Below are positions 5,562 through 41,938 of a DNA stretch of 55,994 bases, piece by piece; position 1 is the first letter of the stretch, and the number at the start of each line of letters is the position of its first letter. Below the pieces are notes generated by a model that had not been told where the DNA came from, made no database searches, and saw nothing but the letters and a program-made list of their open reading frames with translations. The stretch lies in the NCBI GenBank assembly GCA_024401865.1, contig JAKSKI010000004.1:1-55994 (forward strand), in the 5' to 3' direction. This DNA is from Bacteroidales bacterium (lineage in GTDB: Bacteria > Bacteroidota > Bacteroidia > Bacteroidales > UBA932). The translations under genes were made by a program, and so were the position numbers.

Positions 5562-6938
5562 ATGAAAGACATAATAATCGCAGTTCTCGAATCTCTCGGA
5601 GTGCGTCACACCAGGGCATTCGTCACGAGAATGTGCGTTCACAATATTCAGGGTAACAACCTGCTCGGGATTATACGGCTCCTCGAGGTGTTCGGTGTAA
5701 AGTCGCGTGCAGTCAGGATTGAGGACGCCGATGATTTCAAGGATTTGGAATTACCATACCTCTGCAGCACCGACAAAGACGGATTTGTTCTGGTAACAGG
5801 TCGGAACGATACCGGGCTTACATATACTGACGGTAAGAAATCCACAAAATCCGATTCGGATTCGTTCCTGAAAGAGGTCAGGATGCTGGCGGTCATGTTC
5901 AGCGCCAAAGCCGATGCATCGGAGCCGGACTACAAGAAACACAGACGCAAGGAACTATATCAGAACATCCTGTGGGGCATCCCTGCTTTATGGATAATAT
6001 GGCTGCTTGCTATGCAGTTCACCGGAATCCCCGGCTTGTACGCATCGGTGCCGTCTGTCACTTACAGAGTGTTGGCGCTTGTGTTGTCGTCTATGAGTTT
6101 GCTACTGTGCATCCTGCTTCACAGGCAGTGGACTGGAGATGGCAGCGCCGTGCAAAAGGTCTGCTCCCTTTTCAAGACCTCCGGCTGCTCATCAGCCCAC
6201 GAAACCTTCTTCTTCAACAGATGGTTCGACCTGTCCGAGGTCGGGGCATCCTATTTCCTTGCCATCATACTGACTGTACTTGTGACACCGCAGACAGCCT
6301 GGTCCGTAGCATGGATGATTCTTCCCGCATTGCCTGCTTCACTCTGGAATCTGGGATATCAGTTCTTCAGGCAGAAGCATTGGTGTCCACTCTGTGTAGC
6401 AGTGCAGATCCTCTTCTGGATAACTGCATTGGCATTTCTGCTTTGCGGGGCATACACCGTCACGACCTTCAACCTCTTCGATATTGTCAGCGCGATACTT
6501 CTATGGGGGAGCCTTCTGGTCATGATTCTCAAGGTTGTCACTCCTGCCGTCCTGAACAGACGCAAAGCCGAATCGGCTCTGGCTCGCCTGTCATCGATAA
6601 AGGGTGAAAAGGATGTACAGAATGCACTTCTCGGGGAGATTGACCCGGGTGTGCGCAATATCACCATTGCCATATCACCAACCTGCCCATTCTGTAGGAC
6701 TGCCTTGGAGACGATAGAGACTATACTTCTCCCTACCGGTCGCTTCACCCTCGAAAAGAAATATATGGCCATCCACTCCGGGGACAAGGAAAAAATTGAG
6801 GAACTTATCGGTGTGGAAGCGGCGCAGGAAAATCAGGAATGGTGCAGGAAACACGATGTGAAGGGGACGCCCGCGGTGTTTTTGAACGGCAGATGCCTGA
6901 ACAGCATATATTCTGTCGAAGATTTGTTGTATATTTAA
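5562..6938 (+). CDS. VKOR-thioredoxin fusion with an inactive C39-like N-terminal domain
   Basis: A 458-residue membrane oxidoreductase. Residues 1-110 resemble a C39 peptidase fold but lack the N-terminal Cys and have Phe75 where the catalytic His would be (DGFVLVTG), so it should not cleave. Residues 135-325 form a VKOR four-helix unit with loop cysteines Cys201 and Cys209 and the quinone-side pair Cys275/Cys278 (CPLC). Residues 365-458 are a DsbA/thioredoxin-like domain with Cys375/Cys378 (CPFC) and the cis-Pro437 loop. Such fusions make disulfides and pass electrons to quinone. It is the first gene of the peptide-export operon. I infer that it binds the precursor leader with its C39-like domain and oxidises the two precursor cysteines. 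Confidence 0.87.
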   Translation: MKDIIIAVLESLGVRHTRAFVTRMCVHNIQGNNLLGIIRLLEVFGVKSRAVRIEDADDFKDLELPYLCSTDKDGFVLVTGRNDTGLTYTDGKKSTKSDSDSFLKEVRMLAVMFSAKADASEPDYKKHRRKELYQNILWGIPALWIIWLLAMQFTGIPGLYASVPSVTYRVLALVLSSMSLLLCILLHRQWTGDGSAVQKVCSLFKTSGCSSAHETFFFNRWFDLSEVGASYFLAIILTVLVTPQTAWSVAWMILPALPASLWNLGYQFFRQKHWCPLCVAVQILFWITALAFLLCGAYTVTTFNLFDIVSAILLWGSLLVMILKVVTPAVLNRRKAESALARLSSIKGEKDVQNALLGEIDPGVRNITIAISPTCPFCRTALETIETILLPTGRFTLEKKYMAIHSGDKEKIEELIGVEAAQENQEWCRKHDVKGTPAVFLNGRCLNSIYSVEDLLYI

Positions 6939-6959
6939 TGGTTCAAATTGAAAACTGTG

Positions 6960-7820
6960 ATGGCAGAAGAAAGCAAAGACAAATTGTTCAGGGACAAGGC
7001 TCTCAAACAGTTGGAACGTCCGGATGTCATCGAAACGGAGATCAGGGTGACCAGACCGTCCACGTATGTCATTATTGCATCAATGGCGATATTGGTGGTT
7101 GCCGTATTCGTCTGGTGCATGTTGGGCAGCATATCTGACAGGAGTTCGGTGAGCGGGGTCATTTTCCCTATCGACAGGGTTGTTGATGTTACCTTGCCCA
7201 ACAGAGGTACGGTGCGAAGCACTTTTGTCTCCAACGGAGATGTTGTGGAAAAGGGTCAGGCCCTCGCCATGGTAAGTGTTGGAGATGCTTATAGTATGAT
7301 CTCCTCCCCGGCATGCGGTTCCATACTCAACATCAAGAAGGAAAACGAAGATTTCGAATCCCTCGCTCCCATTGTCACCATAGTCAGCGATGAGGAGGAG
7401 CAGGGAGGCGCTGCCGTGGCTTTTGTCCCGTTCGAGATTTCCAGAAAACTCAGGAGCGGGATGAGGGTTGAGGTTACTCCCAAGAACCTCACCCGTGAGA
7501 AGAACGGATACATCGTCGGTCATATTACCGAAGTGGAGAGATATCCGGTATCAAGGGATGATGCCGTCAAAGTGTTGAAGAATGAGAACTTCATAGGCGA
7601 TATTTTCCCCGAGCAGGGCGCGGCATTTGTCGTAAAGATGGAACTGCACCGTCAGGATGACGGATCCCTGGTATGGTCATTCAAGCCGGACGAGCCGGTG
7701 GATATGGGAACCGGCACGTTCTGTGATATAAGGATTGTCACGAAACGCCGTTCCGTATATGAATACCTGTTCGAATCGGTGCACGAAAAGGCTGTCAAGG
7801 GGAGATTGATGTTCGAATGA
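6960..7820 (+). CDS. HlyD-like secretion protein (NHLP/NHLM bacteriocin-system type)
   Basis: The start is the ATG at 6960; the same frame extends only to an upstream TTG. The 286-residue protein has one membrane anchor at about residues 34-56. A split biotinyl-lipoyl domain follows (VTLPNRGTVRSTFVSNGDVVEKGQAL and the downstream half) and then a beta-barrel region. There is no long coiled-coil hairpin, which matches the short secretion proteins paired with NHLP-type bacteriocin ABC transporters. It probably docks on the two ABC transporters encoded next. Its last codon overlaps the next ATG (ATGA). Confidence 0.85.
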   Translation: MAEESKDKLFRDKALKQLERPDVIETEIRVTRPSTYVIIASMAILVVAVFVWCMLGSISDRSSVSGVIFPIDRVVDVTLPNRGTVRSTFVSNGDVVEKGQALAMVSVGDAYSMISSPACGSILNIKKENEDFESLAPIVTIVSDEEEQGGAAVAFVPFEISRKLRSGMRVEVTPKNLTREKNGYIVGHITEVERYPVSRDDAVKVLKNENFIGDIFPEQGAAFVVKMELHRQDDGSLVWSFKPDEPVDMGTGTFCDIRIVTKRRSVYEYLFESVHEKAVKGRLMFE

Positions 7821-9997
7821 AAACGGGTGGGAAACATAGGGTTCCGGTAATCATGCAGATGGAAGCTGCCGAGTGCGGGGCTGCCTCGCTTGCTATGATT
7901 CTTGCATATTATGGGAAATGGCTGCCTCTCGGACAGGTGCGGTACGACTGCGGTGTGTCCAGAGACGGCAGCAACCTACGCAACGTTTCGCAGGCCGCCA
8001 AAAATTACGGGCTCCAGACAAAGGCTTACTCCATCGAGAATCTTGATGAATTAAAGGAACTGCCTCTTCCCTGCATCGCCCATTGGAATTTCGAGCACTT
8101 TGTGGTTGTAACCGGGATTGGCAGAGACAAGGTATTCATCAACGACCCTGCCCGCGGTAAGATAAAGGCATCGATACAGGAGGCCGACGAAGCTCTGACC
8201 GGGGTTGTGCTGACCTTCGCCCCCGGACCGGATTTCAGACGTGGCGGCCATAGGGCGAGCATAGCCTCTTTTGTGCTGGAAAGACTTCAGGGCGCCAAAG
8301 AGGCTCTGTTGTTCACTTTCATTACAGGGATGATTATCGCCTTTGCGGGCGTTGCCGCAAAAATCTTCACACAGGTTTTTGCTGATGATATACTGACTCG
8401 CAGGAATCCCGAATGGTTCCCGCTTTTCATGATTCTTTTCGGATGCCTTTTCCTTGTCCAGACCATTACCCGGCTTGTTTCCGACATTTATTCACGCGCA
8501 TTCCGAATGAAATTGTCCATAATCGGCAATTCTTCTTTCCTCAGGCAGTTGCTCAGACTGCCAATGCGCTTTTTTGAGCAGCATGTTCCCGGAGATCTGT
8601 TGATGCGACAGAACAGCGCGGCGACAGTGGCATCCGACCTTGTCAGTAAACTGGCCCCGGTGGTAACAAATGTGGCCCTGTTGGTGATTTACCTGTTTTT
8701 CATGATGCGCTACAATCTTGTCCTGGCAGGTGTAGCGGCTCTTTCGACGCTAATCAACCTGCTCATGACCCGTTTCATCGCCGAAAAACAGGTGGACCTG
8801 ATAAGGGTGTCGGAGCGGAGGAGGGGCAGGATGATGAGCAATACGATGGCCAGTCTGCTCAACATTGAATCGGTCAAGGCCGCAGGAGCGGAGAGGGAGT
8901 TTTTCAGGCGCTGGTCCAATGTCTTTGCCGAAAGCTACAATGCCGACGTCAATATTAACAGGACTGTGGCATATCTGGGGACGTTGCCGTCACTGCTGGT
9001 CACTGTCAGCAATACTGTCGTACTCGGACTGGGAGCCTGGTATATCATTGCCGGAGAGATGTCTGTGGGTATGCTGATGGCTTTCCAGGGGATAATGGCA
9101 TCCTTCACGGGGTCATCCGGCTCTATCGTCGGTACATTCAACTCCCTGCTGACGATGCGCTCCAATATGGAACGAATGGAGGATGTGTTCCGCAGCGAAA
9201 CCGACCCCGCCCTGAATACGGGCCGTCCCGGAAAGGAAATGAAGAGAGTTATCGGTAAACTTGGGGGAGAGGTGGAACTCAGGAACATTTCCTTCGGATA
9301 CAACAGGCTCGAGCCCCCTTTGGTCGACAATTTCAACCTGACCGTCAAACTTGGCAGGAGTGTGGCTTTGGTCGGCCCCACCGGTTGCGGCAAAAGCACG
9401 GTGGCAAACATTATTGCAGGGATAAACCAACCGTGGAGCGGAGAGGTTCTATATGACGGTATCCCGCTCAGCGGTATTGACAGATCGACCTTTGTCAATT
9501 CGGTAGCTGTTGTGAGCCAGGGCCACTTCATCTTCAGTGGGACAGTTGCGGACAACATAAAGATGTGGGATGGGACAATAGAGGACTTCGCAATGATTCT
9601 TGCATGCTACCAGGCGCAGATACACAAGGATATAGCATCAAGACCCGATGCTTACGAGTCCGAAATGAACGAGGGTGGTTCGAACTTCAGCACAGGCCAG
9701 TTGCAGAGGATGGAGATTGCTGCCGCACTGGTCCGAGAACCGATTATTCTGATACTCGACGAGGCTACCAGCGCCCTGGATGCACATACTGAGTCGTTGG
9801 TGATGAACGCCGTCAAGGAGATGGGCATTACGCTGATTATCGTTGCCCACCGCCTCAGCACGGTGCGTGACTGCGACGAGATAATCGTGATGGAAAAAGG
9901 CAAGGCGGTGGAACGCGGCAACCACGAAGAACTAATGGCTCTCCGCGGAAAGTATTACGGGCTTATGTCCATTAACGCTCAGGGAGGAGGAGACTGA
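7817..9997 (+). CDS. Peptidase-containing ABC transporter (C39 protease, permease, ATPase)
   Basis: The 726-residue protein removes double-glycine leaders and exports the cargo. The C39 peptidase domain (1-140) has Gln14, catalytic Cys20 (AECGAAS), His94 (EHFVVV) and Asp110 (NDPARG). Six membrane helices follow at about 160-440. The ATPase has Walker A VGPTGCGKST, Walker B ILILDEATSALD and the H-loop VAHRLSTV. The signature reads FSTGQ instead of LSGGQ. Overall it resembles the first ABC subunit of NHLP (nitrile-hydratase-leader) bacteriocin systems. It overlaps both neighbours by 4 and 1 bases, so it is translationally coupled. The expected substrate is the peptide at 14287. Confidence 0.93.
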   Translation: MKTGGKHRVPVIMQMEAAECGAASLAMILAYYGKWLPLGQVRYDCGVSRDGSNLRNVSQAAKNYGLQTKAYSIENLDELKELPLPCIAHWNFEHFVVVTGIGRDKVFINDPARGKIKASIQEADEALTGVVLTFAPGPDFRRGGHRASIASFVLERLQGAKEALLFTFITGMIIAFAGVAAKIFTQVFADDILTRRNPEWFPLFMILFGCLFLVQTITRLVSDIYSRAFRMKLSIIGNSSFLRQLLRLPMRFFEQHVPGDLLMRQNSAATVASDLVSKLAPVVTNVALLVIYLFFMMRYNLVLAGVAALSTLINLLMTRFIAEKQVDLIRVSERRRGRMMSNTMASLLNIESVKAAGAEREFFRRWSNVFAESYNADVNINRTVAYLGTLPSLLVTVSNTVVLGLGAWYIIAGEMSVGMLMAFQGIMASFTGSSGSIVGTFNSLLTMRSNMERMEDVFRSETDPALNTGRPGKEMKRVIGKLGGEVELRNISFGYNRLEPPLVDNFNLTVKLGRSVALVGPTGCGKSTVANIIAGINQPWSGEVLYDGIPLSGIDRSTFVNSVAVVSQGHFIFSGTVADNIKMWDGTIEDFAMILACYQAQIHKDIASRPDAYESEMNEGGSNFSTGQLQRMEIAAALVREPIILILDEATSALDAHTESLVMNAVKEMGITLIIVAHRLSTVRDCDEIIVMEKGKAVERGNHEELMALRGKYYGLMSINAQGGGD

Positions 9998-11847
9998 TGG
10001 AAAACCTATATCTTGACAGGCTTAAGGAGCTTGACCTTATGGACAGGAATTCCATGGAGAGCGCTATGGAAGACCTTTCCTCAATGGTGAACAGGGATGG
10101 CGGCGGAAAGAAGGAAAAGCCGCTGATGACAAGGCGTTTCCCCGAAAGAAGCCTGAAACTGCGTGACATCCTGTTGTTCTCAGTTCATTCCCTGACTGCT
10201 GCTGACATTGTGTATGTGCTGCTGATAAGCGCGGCTGTCGCCCTCATCAATATGTTGCTCCCGTTTCTTAACAAGGAGATTTTCGACAACATAATACCTT
10301 CCGGTGAGACAGGCAACCTGCTTCCCATCGTGATAGTCCTTGCCGCATCAGGGGCGGGAGCGGCACTCTTCTCCGTTACAAGAAGCCTCCTGCTGATGCG
10401 CGTAAGGGACAAGGTGAACGTCGATGTCCAGGCCGCAATGATAGACCGCACCTTCAGACTGCCGGCCACTTTCTTCCGCAAATACAGCTCAGGAGAACTC
10501 AGCAGCAGGATAATGTCCGTTTCATCGATATGCTCTATGTTGAGCGATACCGTGCTCAGCGGAATGCTTTCGCTGATCTTCTCCCTTGTATATTTCTATC
10601 AGGTTTACATCTATGCCCAGTCATTGCTGGGCATATGCATCCTTCTAATGCTGGCAAACGTTGTCCTGTCAGCCGTCACATTCATATGCACGCTTCGTTT
10701 CCATAATAAAATCCAACCGAATAACGTTGCCCTGACCGGCTTTATGTTCAGTCTTGTGAATGGAATGCAGAAGATAAAGACAAGCGGATCAGAGCGCAGG
10801 GCGTTCGCCAGATGGGCTTCGCTGTTCAAGGATGCAAGTCCCGACAAGGCTGACAAGCCTCTTATAATAACGATTGCACCGACTCTCTCGATGGCCCTTT
10901 CTCTTGGAGGCACACTGCTCATATACGGTTTTGCCTTTACATCCAAAGTCCAACTGTCCGATTTCATTGCCTTCAATGCCGCATTCGGAATGGTATCGGG
11001 AGCCATCGCTTCATTCAACGGAATACTTCCTACACTGGCCAGGTTGAAGCCCATGTCCGAACTGGTTCGCCCCGTGCTTGATGAAGTGCCGGAACAGGAA
11101 GACAGTTTGCCTGAGGTTCGCTCGTTGAGCGGAAGCATTGAAATCAACGAGCTGAAATTCCGTTACGACGAAGAATCCCCGTACCTGTACGACGGACTCA
11201 ACCTCAAGATAAAGAGGGGAGAGTATGTCGGGATTGTGGGCGAGTCCGGCTGCGGAAAGAGTACGCTCCTGCGGCTTCTGCTCGGTTTTGAAAAACCGGA
11301 ATCCGGATCCATTTTTTATGACCATTACAATCTGGCAAATGTCAACAAGTCCTCGCTTCGCAGACATATAGGTACCTGTATGCAGGACAAGAACCTGTTT
11401 GGCGGTACACTGTTCGACAATATTACCTTGAACGCTCCTCTCAGTTCATACGATGATGCCTGGGAGGCTGCACGGCTTGCCGGAGTCGATGAGGATATTA
11501 GGGAAATGCCTATGCAGATGCATACACTCATCAACGACAGCGGTACAGGCATAAGCGGAGGGCAGAAGCAGAGGATACTCATTGCAAGGGCCCTTGCCGG
11601 CAGACCCTCGATATTGTTCTTTGACGAGGCTACGAGCGCCCTGGACAACATAACCCAGGAGAAAGTCGCGGAAAATCTCGAAAAGCTCAAGTGCACGAGG
11701 CTCTGCATTGCCCACCGTTTGAGCACCGTACGTTCCTGTGACCGTATTCTGGTACTGAAAGGAGGAAAGATAGTCGAGGAGGGTGATTACGACAGCCTTA
11801 TTGAAAGGCGGGGCTTTTTCTACGAATTGGTAAACAAACAGATATGA
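9997..11847 (+). CDS. Second ABC transporter of the peptide-export operon (permease-ATPase, no peptidase)
   Basis: The 616-residue half-transporter begins with about 55 soluble residues and then has six membrane helices at 65-370 and an ATPase domain. The ATPase has Walker A VGESGCGKST, a standard ISGGQKQR signature, Walker B ILFFDEATSALD and the H-loop IAHRLSTV. It resembles the second ABC subunit of NHLP bacteriocin systems, which pairs with the peptidase-bearing subunit. Its consensus ATP site may complement the degenerate signature of its partner in a heterodimer. That pairing is inference from order and sequence. It overlaps the next gene by ATGA. Confidence 0.9.
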   Translation: MENLYLDRLKELDLMDRNSMESAMEDLSSMVNRDGGGKKEKPLMTRRFPERSLKLRDILLFSVHSLTAADIVYVLLISAAVALINMLLPFLNKEIFDNIIPSGETGNLLPIVIVLAASGAGAALFSVTRSLLLMRVRDKVNVDVQAAMIDRTFRLPATFFRKYSSGELSSRIMSVSSICSMLSDTVLSGMLSLIFSLVYFYQVYIYAQSLLGICILLMLANVVLSAVTFICTLRFHNKIQPNNVALTGFMFSLVNGMQKIKTSGSERRAFARWASLFKDASPDKADKPLIITIAPTLSMALSLGGTLLIYGFAFTSKVQLSDFIAFNAAFGMVSGAIASFNGILPTLARLKPMSELVRPVLDEVPEQEDSLPEVRSLSGSIEINELKFRYDEESPYLYDGLNLKIKRGEYVGIVGESGCGKSTLLRLLLGFEKPESGSIFYDHYNLANVNKSSLRRHIGTCMQDKNLFGGTLFDNITLNAPLSSYDDAWEAARLAGVDEDIREMPMQMHTLINDSGTGISGGQKQRILIARALAGRPSILFFDEATSALDNITQEKVAENLEKLKCTRLCIAHRLSTVRSCDRILVLKGGKIVEEGDYDSLIERRGFFYELVNKQI

Positions 11848-12682
11848 AAAGATTGTCCTTTATCCCATATTGCGTGATATGCATTGTCCTTGCGTCCTGT
11901 GGCCCGCGCGCGGCAGTTCGAAGTGAGGAATATGCATTGCAGGAGCAGTCAGCTCCACTGCAGAATACGAAACTGCCGGACCGGGATGATGCCACATCTC
12001 ACTCGGATATTGCCAGGACTGTGAGCAAAGGCAGGATAGAATCCGTGACAGACGTTGCCGTGTACAGTCAGATGCAGGAACAGATAGTGGTGCTCAACAT
12101 TAAGGATGGTTCCATCGTCCGCAAGGGAGATGTAATAGTTGAACTCAATGACGAGAACCTTATGAATCAGCTGGTCCAGGCCAGGAATGCCTTTGAACAG
12201 GCGGAGTTTATGTACCATGAGATTCTGGTCGGCCAGGGCTACAGCATCGAGGAGATGGACAAGGTGCCTGAGTATGTGTTGAAGATATCCAAGGTTAAGA
12301 GCGGTTACAACACCAACGAGGCGTCCCTGAGTCAGGCCGAGCGTAATTATGCCAAGAGGAATGTGACGGCTCCTATATCCGGGACTGTCACTGACGTGTC
12401 CGTACATCAGTTTGACCTGCCGCAAAGTACCGCGCCACTGTGCCGCATCTTCGATCCCCGCAATATGAAGTTGTCTTCAACATACTGGAGAATGAAAGGG
12501 GAAGGATAGAGATAGGGTCTGAAGTGTCAGTCACCACGGTCGCTTATGCCAATGAAATCCACAGTGCCACTGTGAACATCATCAGCCCGCGGGTGGACGA
12601 AAACGGAATGATAAGGATTGAAGCAAGGCTTAAGGATTGCAACAACCTTGTCCCGGGAATGACAGCCTTCGTCAATCTGTGA
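11844..12682 (+). pseudogene. Lipoprotein membrane-fusion (HlyD/RND adaptor) protein with a single-base frameshift
   Basis: The frame opened at 11844 encodes a lipoprotein signal (lipobox VLASC, Cys19) and a split lipoyl domain. It also carries a coiled-coil-like helical pair and the start of a beta-barrel. It stops at 12509. The homologous remainder, starting with EVVFNILENERG, continues in another frame to 12682. Restoring one G after ATG at about 12466 (ATGGAAG instead of ATGAAG) joins FDPRNM to EVVFN and gives one 279-residue adaptor. The cause is either a sequencing or assembly error or a real mutation that would cut off the C-terminal barrel. It should link the ABC transporters to the TolC channel encoded 5 bases downstream. 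Confidence 0.82.
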
Positions 12683-12687
12683 GAGTT

Positions 12688-14196
12688 ATGAGTACCAGTG
12701 TGAGAATATTCCTGCTGCTTGCATCCCTTTCCCTCGGGGCTGGTATGCACGCCCAGGACGTGAAGGAATTGAAGTTCTCTCTGGATGAAGTAGTGGATAT
12801 CGCTATTGCGAATTCAAATATCTCCATCCAGGCAAAAAGTCTGTATGAAACTGAGAAATACAGTTTCGATTCTTTCGTTGCATCGCGCAGATGGCAGTTG
12901 GGGTTGAACTTCGGCCCTTCGTATCAGCTCTCGTCTCTCCCGCCCGAGGCTTACTCAGTATCCGCGTTTTCGAACACCAACGCTTTGTCCGCCGGAGCCA
13001 CTCTCAATTTCAGCAAGCTCATATCGGGCACTGGCGGCTATGCCTATGCCACTTCGAACCTGGCTTGGAGTGAGTACTTCTCAGAATCCGGGGATGCATA
13101 CAGACAGCTGTACGGAGCTCCGCGTCTTATGGGCACAACTCCGATACGAGTCGGGTACAGGCAGGAACTGATAGGCTACAACGGTCCTAAGTGGGACAAG
13201 AAGATAAGGGACAAACAGTATGAGAATGCCGGGAAGGAATATGTTGCCAGGATGGCTGCAATTTCAGAGACAGCCGCCGGCTATTTCTTCTCATATGCCA
13301 CTTGCAAGGCCTTGTATGATATGTATAAGATCAATGCCGAGAGTGCCGACTCTCTCTATCGCATAGGACTGAAGAAATATGATCTTACCTCCATCCGCAA
13401 GGATGAACTGCTGTCACTTCAGCTTCAGCTTATGAACTCCCAGAATGACGTGCGGTCGAGTTACAACTCGATGGAGAAGGCAAGGCGCTCGCTCCTCTCA
13501 TATCTTAATATGGGATACGAGGACGTATCCGTCGAAGTGGATCTCCCCGACAACCCCGAACATTATATAGCGATAGACCCGCAGCAGGCCATCGAAACAG
13601 CAAAGCAGTACAACCCCGAATTCGGGCAGGCGGAGGAAGCCTTGCTGCGGGCCCAGCAGGAACTTGACCGGGCCAAACGGGAGAAAGGACTTCAGGCTAA
13701 CCTGGACCTGAGCGTCGGCCTTCAGAAATTCGGCTATGATTTCAATACCCTCGGCACTACAAACAAGATGTATTCGATGGCCAATGTCACTTTAGGCATT
13801 CCGATAGTCGATCACGGTATGCGTCGCGACAATTATAACGCGGCGAAGACCCGGGCGGATTATTACGATGTGCAAATGGTCGAGACCGAGCGCGTCATCG
13901 TCGAATCCATAGTCAATACGGTGAACGAACTCCAAATACAGCAGATGATGCTCGAGGACACGAAAAAGGCGATGGAGCTCGCTGACGAGTCATTCAGGCA
14001 GAACCAGTACAACTATGCCCACGGCCTGTCTGACATAAACACTTTCACCTTGTCTCAGAACCGCAAGGACAGTGCGCATATCAACTACATCTCGTCCCTC
14101 AGGGATTTCTGGCTCGCCTATTACAGGTTGTGCGCCATTACCCTCTATGACTTCTACAATATGAGGCCGTTGGAATATTCCGGCATATCATATTGA
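12688..14196 (+). CDS. TolC-family outer membrane channel
   Basis: The start is the ATG at 12688, which begins a good signal peptide (cleavage after GMHA); longer frames only add unlikely codons upstream. The mature protein of about 480 residues shows the TolC repeat pattern. Two halves are rich in long amphipathic helices with Glu/Gln/Ala heptads (about 190-290 and 330-470), and beta-strand segments lie between them. It would form the trimeric outer-membrane exit duct for the peptide exporter. Placed last in the operon, 5 bases after the adaptor. Confidence 0.88.
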   Translation: MSTSVRIFLLLASLSLGAGMHAQDVKELKFSLDEVVDIAIANSNISIQAKSLYETEKYSFDSFVASRRWQLGLNFGPSYQLSSLPPEAYSVSAFSNTNALSAGATLNFSKLISGTGGYAYATSNLAWSEYFSESGDAYRQLYGAPRLMGTTPIRVGYRQELIGYNGPKWDKKIRDKQYENAGKEYVARMAAISETAAGYFFSYATCKALYDMYKINAESADSLYRIGLKKYDLTSIRKDELLSLQLQLMNSQNDVRSSYNSMEKARRSLLSYLNMGYEDVSVEVDLPDNPEHYIAIDPQQAIETAKQYNPEFGQAEEALLRAQQELDRAKREKGLQANLDLSVGLQKFGYDFNTLGTTNKMYSMANVTLGIPIVDHGMRRDNYNAAKTRADYYDVQMVETERVIVESIVNTVNELQIQQMMLEDTKKAMELADESFRQNQYNYAHGLSDINTFTLSQNRKDSAHINYISSLRDFWLAYYRLCAITLYDFYNMRPLEYSGISY

Positions 14197-14200
14197 TATA

Positions 14201-14236
14201 TCGTGCAAATTCCGGAATTTTCTCGTATTTGCACGA
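14201..14236. repeat. 10-bp perfect inverted repeat between the TolC gene and the precursor promoter
   Basis: TCGTGCAAAT (14201-14210) and ATTTGCACGA (14227-14236) are perfect inverted arms around 16 bases that hold the palindrome TTCCGGAA. No U-tract follows, so an intrinsic terminator is unlikely. It sits 20 bp upstream of the -7 box of the peptide gene, an attractive operator position. Confidence 0.5.
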
Positions 14237-14256
14237 CAGAAACCTAAAAAATTCAC

Positions 14257-14264
14257 TATGTTTG
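14257..14264 (+). promoter_or_regulatory. Promoter -7 box of the precursor peptide gene
   Basis: TATGTTTG matches TAnnTTTG exactly and lies 22 bases before the ATG at 14287. The nearest upstream TTTG (14228-14231) is 25 bp away, longer than usual, and falls inside the inverted repeat. The peptide can therefore be expressed separately from the exporter operon. Confidence 0.55.
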
Positions 14265-14286
14265 CAGGAGAAAAATCGACACGAAT

Positions 14287-14499
14287 ATGAAAAAGCAAAA
14301 TGTACAACTCAGGGAACTCTCCGAAGAGGAACTCAAGAACGTAACGGGCGGTAGTTACCAACAGCTTATCAATTTTGACGAGCTCCTGGCAGGGGAGATG
14401 AAACCTGCTTGCCCGGAAGGTCAACATCTTATCGCGAATCTGGATGGGACACTTTCTTGCTCGGCAACAGACCTGGAAATAGAAATCCCCAATCTTTGA
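14287..14499 (+). CDS. Double-glycine leader precursor peptide, predicted cargo of the export operon
   Basis: A 70-residue peptide. Residues 1-22 form a typical double-glycine leader with the spacing L-S-x-x-E-L-x-x-V-x-G-G (ELSEEELKNVTGG). Cleavage after Gly22 leaves 48 residues. The mature part has exactly two cysteines, Cys42 and Cys58, 15 residues apart, and one Lys against eight Asp/Glu, so it is strongly acidic. No Ser/Thr-Cys array or radical-SAM partner suggests lanthionine or sactipeptide chemistry. A disulfide made by the VKOR/thioredoxin protein fits best. It may be a bacteriocin-like or signalling peptide; its activity is unknown. Confidence 0.85.
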   Translation: MKKQNVQLRELSEEELKNVTGGSYQQLINFDELLAGEMKPACPEGQHLIANLDGTLSCSATDLEIEIPNL

Positions 14500-14538: not shown

Positions 14539-14572
14539 TTTCGTCGGAACTATCCTCGAAGTTCCGACGAAA
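14539..14572 (+). terminator. Long hairpin downstream of the precursor peptide gene
   Basis: TTTCGTCGGAACT (14539-14551) and AGTTCCGACGAAA (14560-14572) are perfect 13-base arms around an 8-base loop. The hairpin starts 40 bases after the stop codon. Only a short TTGCT follows, so termination may be weak or the hairpin may stabilise the small mRNA. Confidence 0.6.
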
Positions 14573-41907: not shown

Positions 41908-41938
41908 TTTGCAATTGGAACGGAATTTGCGATATTTG
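41908..41938 (+). promoter_or_regulatory. Promoter of ssrA
   Basis: TTTG (41908-41911) and GATATTTG (41931-41938, one mismatch to TAnnTTTG) are separated by 19 bp. They end 13 bases before the tmRNA. Confidence 0.6.

Follow-up and report, generated by a model that had tools for sequence, protein, structure and literature searches.

A Bacteroidales operon with a candidate disulfide-forming oxidase and a probable split-adaptor exporter for a double-glycine peptide

The window analysed here, a whole stretch of 55,994 nucleotides of contig JAKSKI010000004.1 from a Bacteroidales bacterium, carries on one strand the genes for a membrane oxidase, an HlyD-like protein, an ABC protein with a C39 peptidase domain (ABC1), a second ABC protein (ABC2), a lipoprotein adaptor, a TolC protein and a 70-residue double-glycine precursor, in that order according to the open reading frame (ORF) listing and profile searches. 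Taken together, these genes suggest an export system for a small disulfide-bonded peptide that brings its own oxidase. The draft genome holding the window comprises 1.56 Mb in 77 contigs and is 83% complete. A preliminary description of this DNA had the order of the first six genes right, as well as the spacings of -4, -1 and -4 bases; the first gap is 21 bases rather than 22, and the fifth is 5 bases if the end of the adaptor gene is taken as 12682, in which case the count reads through a change of frame. Its protein identities hold by profile for the VKOR-thioredoxin, HlyD-like, C39-ABC, ABC and TolC proteins, while the adaptor lipoprotein is not a single ORF.

The oxidase, the exporter and the precursor

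The oxidase, of 458 residues, matches VKOR at 24.7 bits (Pfam cut-off 27.5), and the matches of its N-terminus to C39 and of its C-terminus to thioredoxin are weaker, all of them under the Pfam cut-off. In some relatives the C39 match passes its Pfam cut-off of 22 (31.4 bits in L009, 29.2 in L058 and 22.3 in L074, where L denotes a locus and, below, G a genome), and it is not in the Pfam lists of the oxidase-profile relatives at L059, L060, L061, L065 and L067. Residues C201, C209, C275, C278, C375, C378 and P437 are invariant in an alignment of 20 sequences; we take C201 and C209 to be the cysteine pair of the loop, C275 and C278 the CxxC of the VKOR core, and C375 and C378 with P437 the CxxC and proline of the thioredoxin-like domain. 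Among PDB structures, the profile of the oxidase family matches the C39 domains of solved bacteriocin transporters and of ComA (E about 2e-9 to 5e-9), the VKOR-thioredoxin protein 4nv6 (E 1.4e-4) and thioredoxin-fold proteins (1z6m at E 1.4e-11, DsbC- and DsbA-type proteins at about 1e-5). A VKOR core followed by a thioredoxin-like domain is also the plan of the solved protein in entries 4nv6 and 3kp9, presumably from Synechococcus; unlike that protein, the window oxidase has an extra N-terminal domain related to C39. Residues 25-90 of the oxidase align at equal length to residues 45-110 of the window's ABC1, with 29% identity, and in this alignment Cys20 of ABC1 falls before the start of the oxidase and His94 falls on Gly74. 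Since the catalytic cysteine and histidine positions are thus lost, the N-terminus of the oxidase reads as a peptidase-dead C39-like domain. C39-like domains can hold leaders or substrates, as in HlyB, and perhaps this one binds the leader of the precursor.

ABC1 matches TIGR03796 at 832 bits (cut-off 853), ABC2 matches TIGR03797 at 634 bits (cut-off 709) and the HlyD-like protein matches TIGR03794 at 122 bits (cut-off 156). The resemblance to NHLP exporters put forward in the preliminary description is therefore strong, yet all three proteins stay below the curated cut-offs. The C39 domain of ABC1 matches PF03412 at 121 bits and the structure 4ry2 at E 5e-92, and C20, H94 and D110 are presumably its catalytic residues. 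The nearest relative of the C39-ABC protein, 73% identical, is that of genome G452, and in the ABC1 tree the window groups with locus L107 of that genome with support 100/100. The rows without a C39 domain require one change in this tree, with weak support (59/77), and with the NHLP-like rows as outgroup loss of the domain is the simpler reading.

The sequences indicate a split adaptor, in which the HlyD-like protein lacks the helical hairpin and the lipoprotein has one. In the window's HlyD-like protein, neighbouring stretches match positions 3-73 of TIGR01843 and positions 253-417 of TIGR03794, and a single unbroken lipoyl-domain match runs through them, so that no hairpin stands between the lipoyl halves; in eight short HlyD proteins the alignment likewise has no insertion at this site. 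Compared with solved HlyD chains, the profile of the short proteins aligns as separate stretches, 23-104 to residues 53-133 of 7sgr_H and 104-187 to residues 327-409 of 8dck_C. Seven of the lipoprotein adaptors, the window's being left out, share an N-terminal cysteine and about 70 residues between the lipoyl halves, and such adaptors match MacA/MexA-type proteins. Two adaptors in one pump have a precedent in TriABC. At the 19 loci that we tabulated besides the window (L008, L107, L108 and L111-L126), the short HlyD is present in all 19, the adaptor in 17 and a TolC match in 15, and the two loci without an adaptor, L121 and L126, run to the end of their contigs.

The leader of the precursor matches TIGR01847 at 18.0 bits, over the cut-off of 15.7. 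This is the only one of the 11 families matched by the precursor up to E 1 that passes its cut-off, and the 11 include no leader family of the NHLP or Nif11 kind, which bears out the earlier claims of a double-glycine precursor behind the operon and of a short leader that is not of the nitrile-hydratase type. A PDB search with the precursor returned weak, unrelated matches only.

Exporters, leaders, oxidases and cysteines across genomes

At E<=1e-100, ABC1 has matches in 24 of 398 sampled family genomes, and in five of these 24, namely the window's own, G452, G536, G515 and G577, the protein has a C39 domain (the C39-ABC copy of G577 carries two stops). ABC1 without the domain is found in the other 19, as a second copy in G452, and in G027, which is outside the list of 24. 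We opened 16 of the 20 places where this search had found the C39-less form; at L008 and L111-L126 the same exporter module occurs with an ABC1 lacking the C39 domain. The HlyD-like protein has matches in 2 of 61 relatives and in 10 of 393 genomes of the order, the window's own being counted in both. Four of the nine other order-level loci were opened (L078-L081) and are NHLP-like, with a longer ABC2 of 918-971 residues, and are without oxidase, adaptor or TolC matches; at L078, L079 and L081 the short HlyD stands without an adaptor match nearby.

The full six-gene order was seen only in the window and at L107 of G452, where no modification enzyme was found. The neighbourhood survey suggested in the preliminary description thus recovers the order a second time, with no double-glycine peptide beside the exporter and sixteen such peptides elsewhere in the genome. 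The genome of G536 gives no oxidase match; HlyD, C39-ABC, ABC2, adaptor and TolC are all there. In G515 and G577 the C39-ABC, ABC2, a GNAT-type gene and the oxidase stand in a row, preceded in G515 by a four-cysteine peptide before the oxidase, and L020, from a Prevotellaceae metagenome-assembled genome (CAMVIM010000010.1), has paired ABC proteins, oxidase and a four-cysteine double-glycine peptide together. Paired ABC proteins, an oxidase and a cysteine-bearing double-glycine peptide are adjoining in L020 and L109, and in L107 (G452) and L110 (G577) the peptides lie elsewhere in the genome.

A first leader profile (A3) was built from seven training leaders, which included the window's and ones from G515, G536 and G016. 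With it the window's genome gives one match, G452 15, G515 four, and G536, G577 and G016 one plausible match each; the sixteenth G452 peptide, with a degenerate leader, came from searching the retrieved stretches locally. All five C39-exporter genomes have leader matches at E<1e-3, as against none at E<=0.1 in the 20 genomes that have only C39-less exporters, where eight matches up to E 10 (best E 0.167) all lie in frames of 243-903 residues. Likewise, four of the five C39-exporter genomes have a full-length-type oxidase match, compared with none of the 20 C39-less-only genomes, and G695 has just a 63-residue oxidase fragment. The peptides of G452 lie at three sites away from the exporter (L153-L155), and their leaders are near-constant while their cores vary.

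The oxidase also co-occurs with cysteine-bearing cores. In 42 cores from oxidase-bearing genomes and loci, all found without a cysteine filter, the numbers of cysteines are two (8 cores), four (22), six (9), eight (1), three (1) and seven (1), hence even in 40 of 42 cores and in 28 of 30 clusters (binomial P 4e-7), a statistic not corrected for descent in a set rich in paralogues. For the cores of the window, G016, L020, G452, G515 and G577 the number is even in 23 of 24. The core of G536, the sole C39-exporter genome without an oxidase, has no cysteine. The count omits four leader-profile matches with E above 1, seven matches from oxidase-free loci (L108, L021, L022, L078 and three in L079, with 0, 0, 0, 0, 1, 1 and 0 cysteines) and the letter-pattern candidates L069:5948-6199 (at an oxidase locus) and L077:8058-8207, both cysteine-free and missed by the leader profile. 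A CPxG motif occurs in 9 of the 42 cores, the window's included, and in different genomes (mean 1.3 and maximum 6 in 2000 shuffles); it was found post hoc and the count includes paralogues.

At L108:14962-15090 a cysteine-free peptide of 42 residues with two GG sites lies upstream of NMT1-like and SpoIIE-domain genes and an oxidase-free exporter. On a Lachnospiraceae contig (L021:73-9001) related paired ABC genes adjoin a small peptide whose leader is of the GG type and a nonribosomal peptide synthetase-like gene with Condensation, AMP-binding and PP-binding domains. In G016, a genome of the same genus, a two-cysteine double-glycine peptide, a C39-like VKOR protein, a GLPGLI protein and an 844-residue protein stand in a row (L009:9276-14355), and the paired exporter is not beside it.

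The proposed route and its alternatives

Our preferred reading, to which we give a probability of roughly 70%, is type I secretion of small, class II microcin-like disulfide-bonded peptides by a system with its own oxidase and an NHLP-type paired ABC base. The C39 domain of ABC1 would recognise the precursor through its leader and cut after Gly-Gly, and the ABC1-ABC2 pair would pump the product. As the peptide arrives in the periplasm, the VKOR-thioredoxin protein would close a disulfide between the two core cysteines, while its peptidase-dead domain might bind the leader or dock onto the exporter. The short, hairpin-less HlyD would sit on the ABC pair and pass to the separate lipoprotein adaptor, whose hairpin would meet TolC, letting the peptide leave the cell. 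The sequences themselves show the genes and their domains, the invariant redox cysteines, the missing hairpin, and the co-occurrence of C39 with double-glycine peptides and of the oxidase with cysteine cores; from these we infer the cleavage, the disulfide, the export route, the leader binding by the C39-like domain and an antibacterial activity. The operon offers a full candidate route whose parts can be tested separately, notably an oxidase of its own that has a C39-like domain and an adaptor function shared between two proteins. With the leader profile and the even-cysteine rule there is also a simple way to search for further peptides of this kind, even where they lie unlinked and a survey of gene neighbourhoods would pass them by.

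Several observations weigh against this reading, among them the break in the adaptor gene and the lack of a recognised immunity gene, both taken up below. Only G452 and G577 of the five C39-exporter genomes provide independent leader matches, because leaders from the other three (G515, G536 and the window's own genome, G000) were among those on which the profile was trained, and the genomes in the co-occurrence tests are related, sampled and incomplete. The oxidase profile has matches in 37 of 393 order genomes, many through the C39 part only (the L077 match is a C39 domain alone); of the 21 order-level loci found through it (L010 and L058-L077), 10 have a double-glycine peptide by a second leader profile, itself partly trained on L010, L058, L067 and L074, and 11 have none. 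Two cores have an odd number of cysteines, three and seven. No HlyD, adaptor or TolC gene was found on the stretches examined of L020, L109 and L110. Finally, with an extra hydrophobic segment at residues 136-154, ahead of the VKOR core, the C39-like domain could lie on either side of the membrane.

The alternative that survives best, though we consider it somewhat unlikely, is that the locus is decaying in the window strain and exports nothing. Its ground is the adaptor gene, which is broken: measured against the unbroken 283-residue relative at L107, the first frame (11844-12509) covers residues 1-214 and a second one, from 12467, covers residues 213-283, which puts the change of frame at about 12467-12473. 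The preliminary description had spoken of a complete envelope-spanning machine; parts for both membranes are present, but with this gene broken completeness cannot be claimed for the window strain, whose exporter may be defective if the break is genuine and not introduced by the assembly. Against decay, the other operon genes are open, the frames flanking the break still match well over 71 and 210 residues, and draft assemblies can carry single-base errors.

We also think it rather unlikely that the product is a signal or a host-acting peptide instead of a bacteriocin. The window core is acidic, with a charge of -7, whereas bacteroidetocin cores carry charges of +2 and +6, with four cysteines (at least two in the wider set; PMC6671954), and no immunity gene was recognised among the window ORFs, new immunity proteins having no profile. 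The hypervariable peptide sets of G452, with their constant leaders, nevertheless seem to fit antagonism better.

It is improbable, in our judgement, that the oxidase serves disulfide formation in the periplasm at large and stands in the operon by chance. The VKOR proteins at L060, L061 and L065 have no peptide neighbours and match neither thioredoxin nor C39, and such oxidases are for that reason not all peptide-dedicated. On the other hand, the C39-like domain of the window oxidase points to contact with a leader or the exporter, the cysteine parity of the cores speaks for a dedicated partner, and in the 26 genomes tested the oxidase was found only together with double-glycine peptides, one fragment excepted.

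We think it equally improbable that the product is further modified by an enzyme encoded elsewhere, which would make it a ribosomally synthesized and post-translationally modified peptide of another class. GNAT-type acetyltransferase genes 3' of ABC2 at L109:9632-10558 and L110:1773-2669 are possible modification or immunity enzymes, and 17% of the genome is missing with the remainder outside the modification-enzyme screen. That screen, which covered the operon proteins, matched no lanthionine, cyclodehydratase or radical-SAM domain, as the preliminary description had claimed, and within the window operon the oxidoreductase indeed stays the only modification candidate; L107 is equally free of such enzymes. 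The lantibiotic-leader family NF038153 has no match in the window's own genome, a negative that carries no weight since the control had no match anywhere either.

Least likely of all is a general envelope exporter of the family whose main cargo is something else, the peptide being a bystander: it would fit that 19 of 398 family genomes carry C39-less forms and have no double-glycine leaders, and that in G452 no peptide adjoins the exporter, but the association of these peptides with the C39 domain, present in five of five genomes with it and in none of 20 without, goes against it.

Returning to a dedicated peptide exporter, a broader picture seems to us possible rather than probable. The family might have a general secretion platform for disulfide peptides: a single machine in the chromosome, its adaptor in two parts and its oxidase able to read leaders, would mature and export numerous peptides encoded away from it, whose leaders hardly vary while their cores are hypervariable; in G452 some of these would stand behind sigma-54-type sites. 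The exporter minus its peptidase might have been re-used for other cargo. It is G452 that suggests that one machine can serve a whole peptide collection.

Known systems and the surroundings of the locus

In class II microcins the core is unmodified except for disulfides, and microcin V (CvaC, CvaB, CvaA, TolC) resembles the window in its double-glycine leader, C39-ABC exporter, membrane fusion protein and TolC (PMC10233263). Unlike class II microcins, the window has two ABC proteins, its own VKOR oxidase and a TolC gene in the operon, no recognised immunity gene, and, in place of a single membrane fusion protein, the hairpin-less HlyD and a separate lipoprotein adaptor. The bacteroidetocins (class IIf) share with the window a cysteine-bearing double-glycine peptide, a C39-ABC exporter and a thiol oxidoreductase, deletion of which attenuates activity (PMC6671954). 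Their locus consists of four genes, for a five-transmembrane protein, the peptide, the thiol oxidoreductase and the C39-ABC protein, whereas the window has no separate five-transmembrane gene and additionally has HlyD, ABC2, adaptor and TolC, a comparison of gene content and not of oxidase homology; HlyD, TolC and VKOR are absent from the main text of that paper. That paper does not settle how such peptides pass the outer membrane of Bacteroidetes, nor how disulfides form in them when general disulfide machinery is said to be missing from these bacteria (PMC6671954). NHLP export combines a peptidase-ABC protein, an ABC partner and an HlyD-like protein of the same families (PMC2887384); a canonical NHLP system was rejected for the window, since the 22-residue leader differs from the long nitrile-hydratase-like one and the scores do not reach the cut-offs. 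By the features tested, then, the window is a member neither of the NHLP system nor of the bacteroidetocin locus. Among the literature matches listed, with subscription papers and preprints outside them, no title or abstract joins VKOR or C39-VKOR with double-glycine peptides of Bacteroidota or concerns a split-adaptor ABC exporter. The combination, which the preliminary description did not recognise as described, looks new, as do an adaptor split in two and an oxidase whose C39-like domain is peptidase-dead, while the parts each have precedent in bacteroidetocins, class II microcins and NHLP exporters.

Table 1. Features of the locus, with positions in the window
Feature	Position	Strand	Basis
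Membrane oxidase: C39-like domain lacking the catalytic Cys and His, then VKOR core and thioredoxin-like domain	5562..6938	+	profiles, alignment
Short HlyD-like inner-membrane protein without helical hairpin	ORF 6948-7820, ATG 6960	+	profiles, alignment
ABC1: C39 peptidase, permease and ATPase; C20, H94, D110 present	7817..9997	+	profiles
ABC2: permease and ATPase, without peptidase	9997..11847	+	profiles
Adaptor lipoprotein, first part: lipobox, hairpin	11844..12509	+	profiles; frame lost at about 12467-12473
Adaptor lipoprotein, last part, other frame	12467..12682	+	match to L107 relative
TolC-type outer-membrane protein	ORF 12637-14196, ATG 12688	+	PF02321, 82.7 bits
Inverted repeat between TolC gene and precursor	14201..14236	.	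repeat search
TAnnTTTG match, candidate -7 element	14257..14264	+	motif search
Precursor: 22-residue double-glycine leader, 48-residue core with two Cys, net charge -7	14287..14499	+	ORF, TIGR01847
Perfect 13-bp hairpin 3' of precursor gene, candidate terminator	14539..14572	.	inverted-repeat search

The operon (Table 1) is flanked by a Na+/H+ antiporter gene on one side and an amidohydrolase gene on the other, and the GC content shows no sharp step. An empty chromosomal site could not be defined: the four closest antiporter homologues (52-58%) have neither operon nor amidohydrolase on the stretches examined. The earlier proposal that the precursor has its own promoter finds some backing in inverted repeats and in one upstream match to TAnnTTTG, which we assume to be the -7 consensus; the promoter scan found no sigma-70-type site at the precursor, and a scan for T-run terminators found none. 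A separate transcription unit for the precursor is plausible. A sigma-54-type site at the window peptide was considered and rejected, the single one-mismatch site in the whole window being at 41916, with 3.8 expected by chance.

In G452 the sigma-54 pattern has 11 exact matches compared with two for the reversed control, and six of the 11 precede array peptides, five in L153 and L154 and one before the pair in L155; two further array peptides have such a site with one mismatch. Counting up to one mismatch, the three matches in L153 alone do not exceed chance (43 of 200 shuffles have as many) and the six in L154 do (1 of 200). Elsewhere the pattern and its reversed control give 2 and 2 matches in G000, 3 and 5 in G016, 3 and 1 in G515, 3 and 2 in G577, and 6 and 2 in G536. 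The orphan peptide arrays at L153, L154 and L155 run in both orientations, and a resolvase-type recombinase gene (L154:9938-10567) adjoins one of them.

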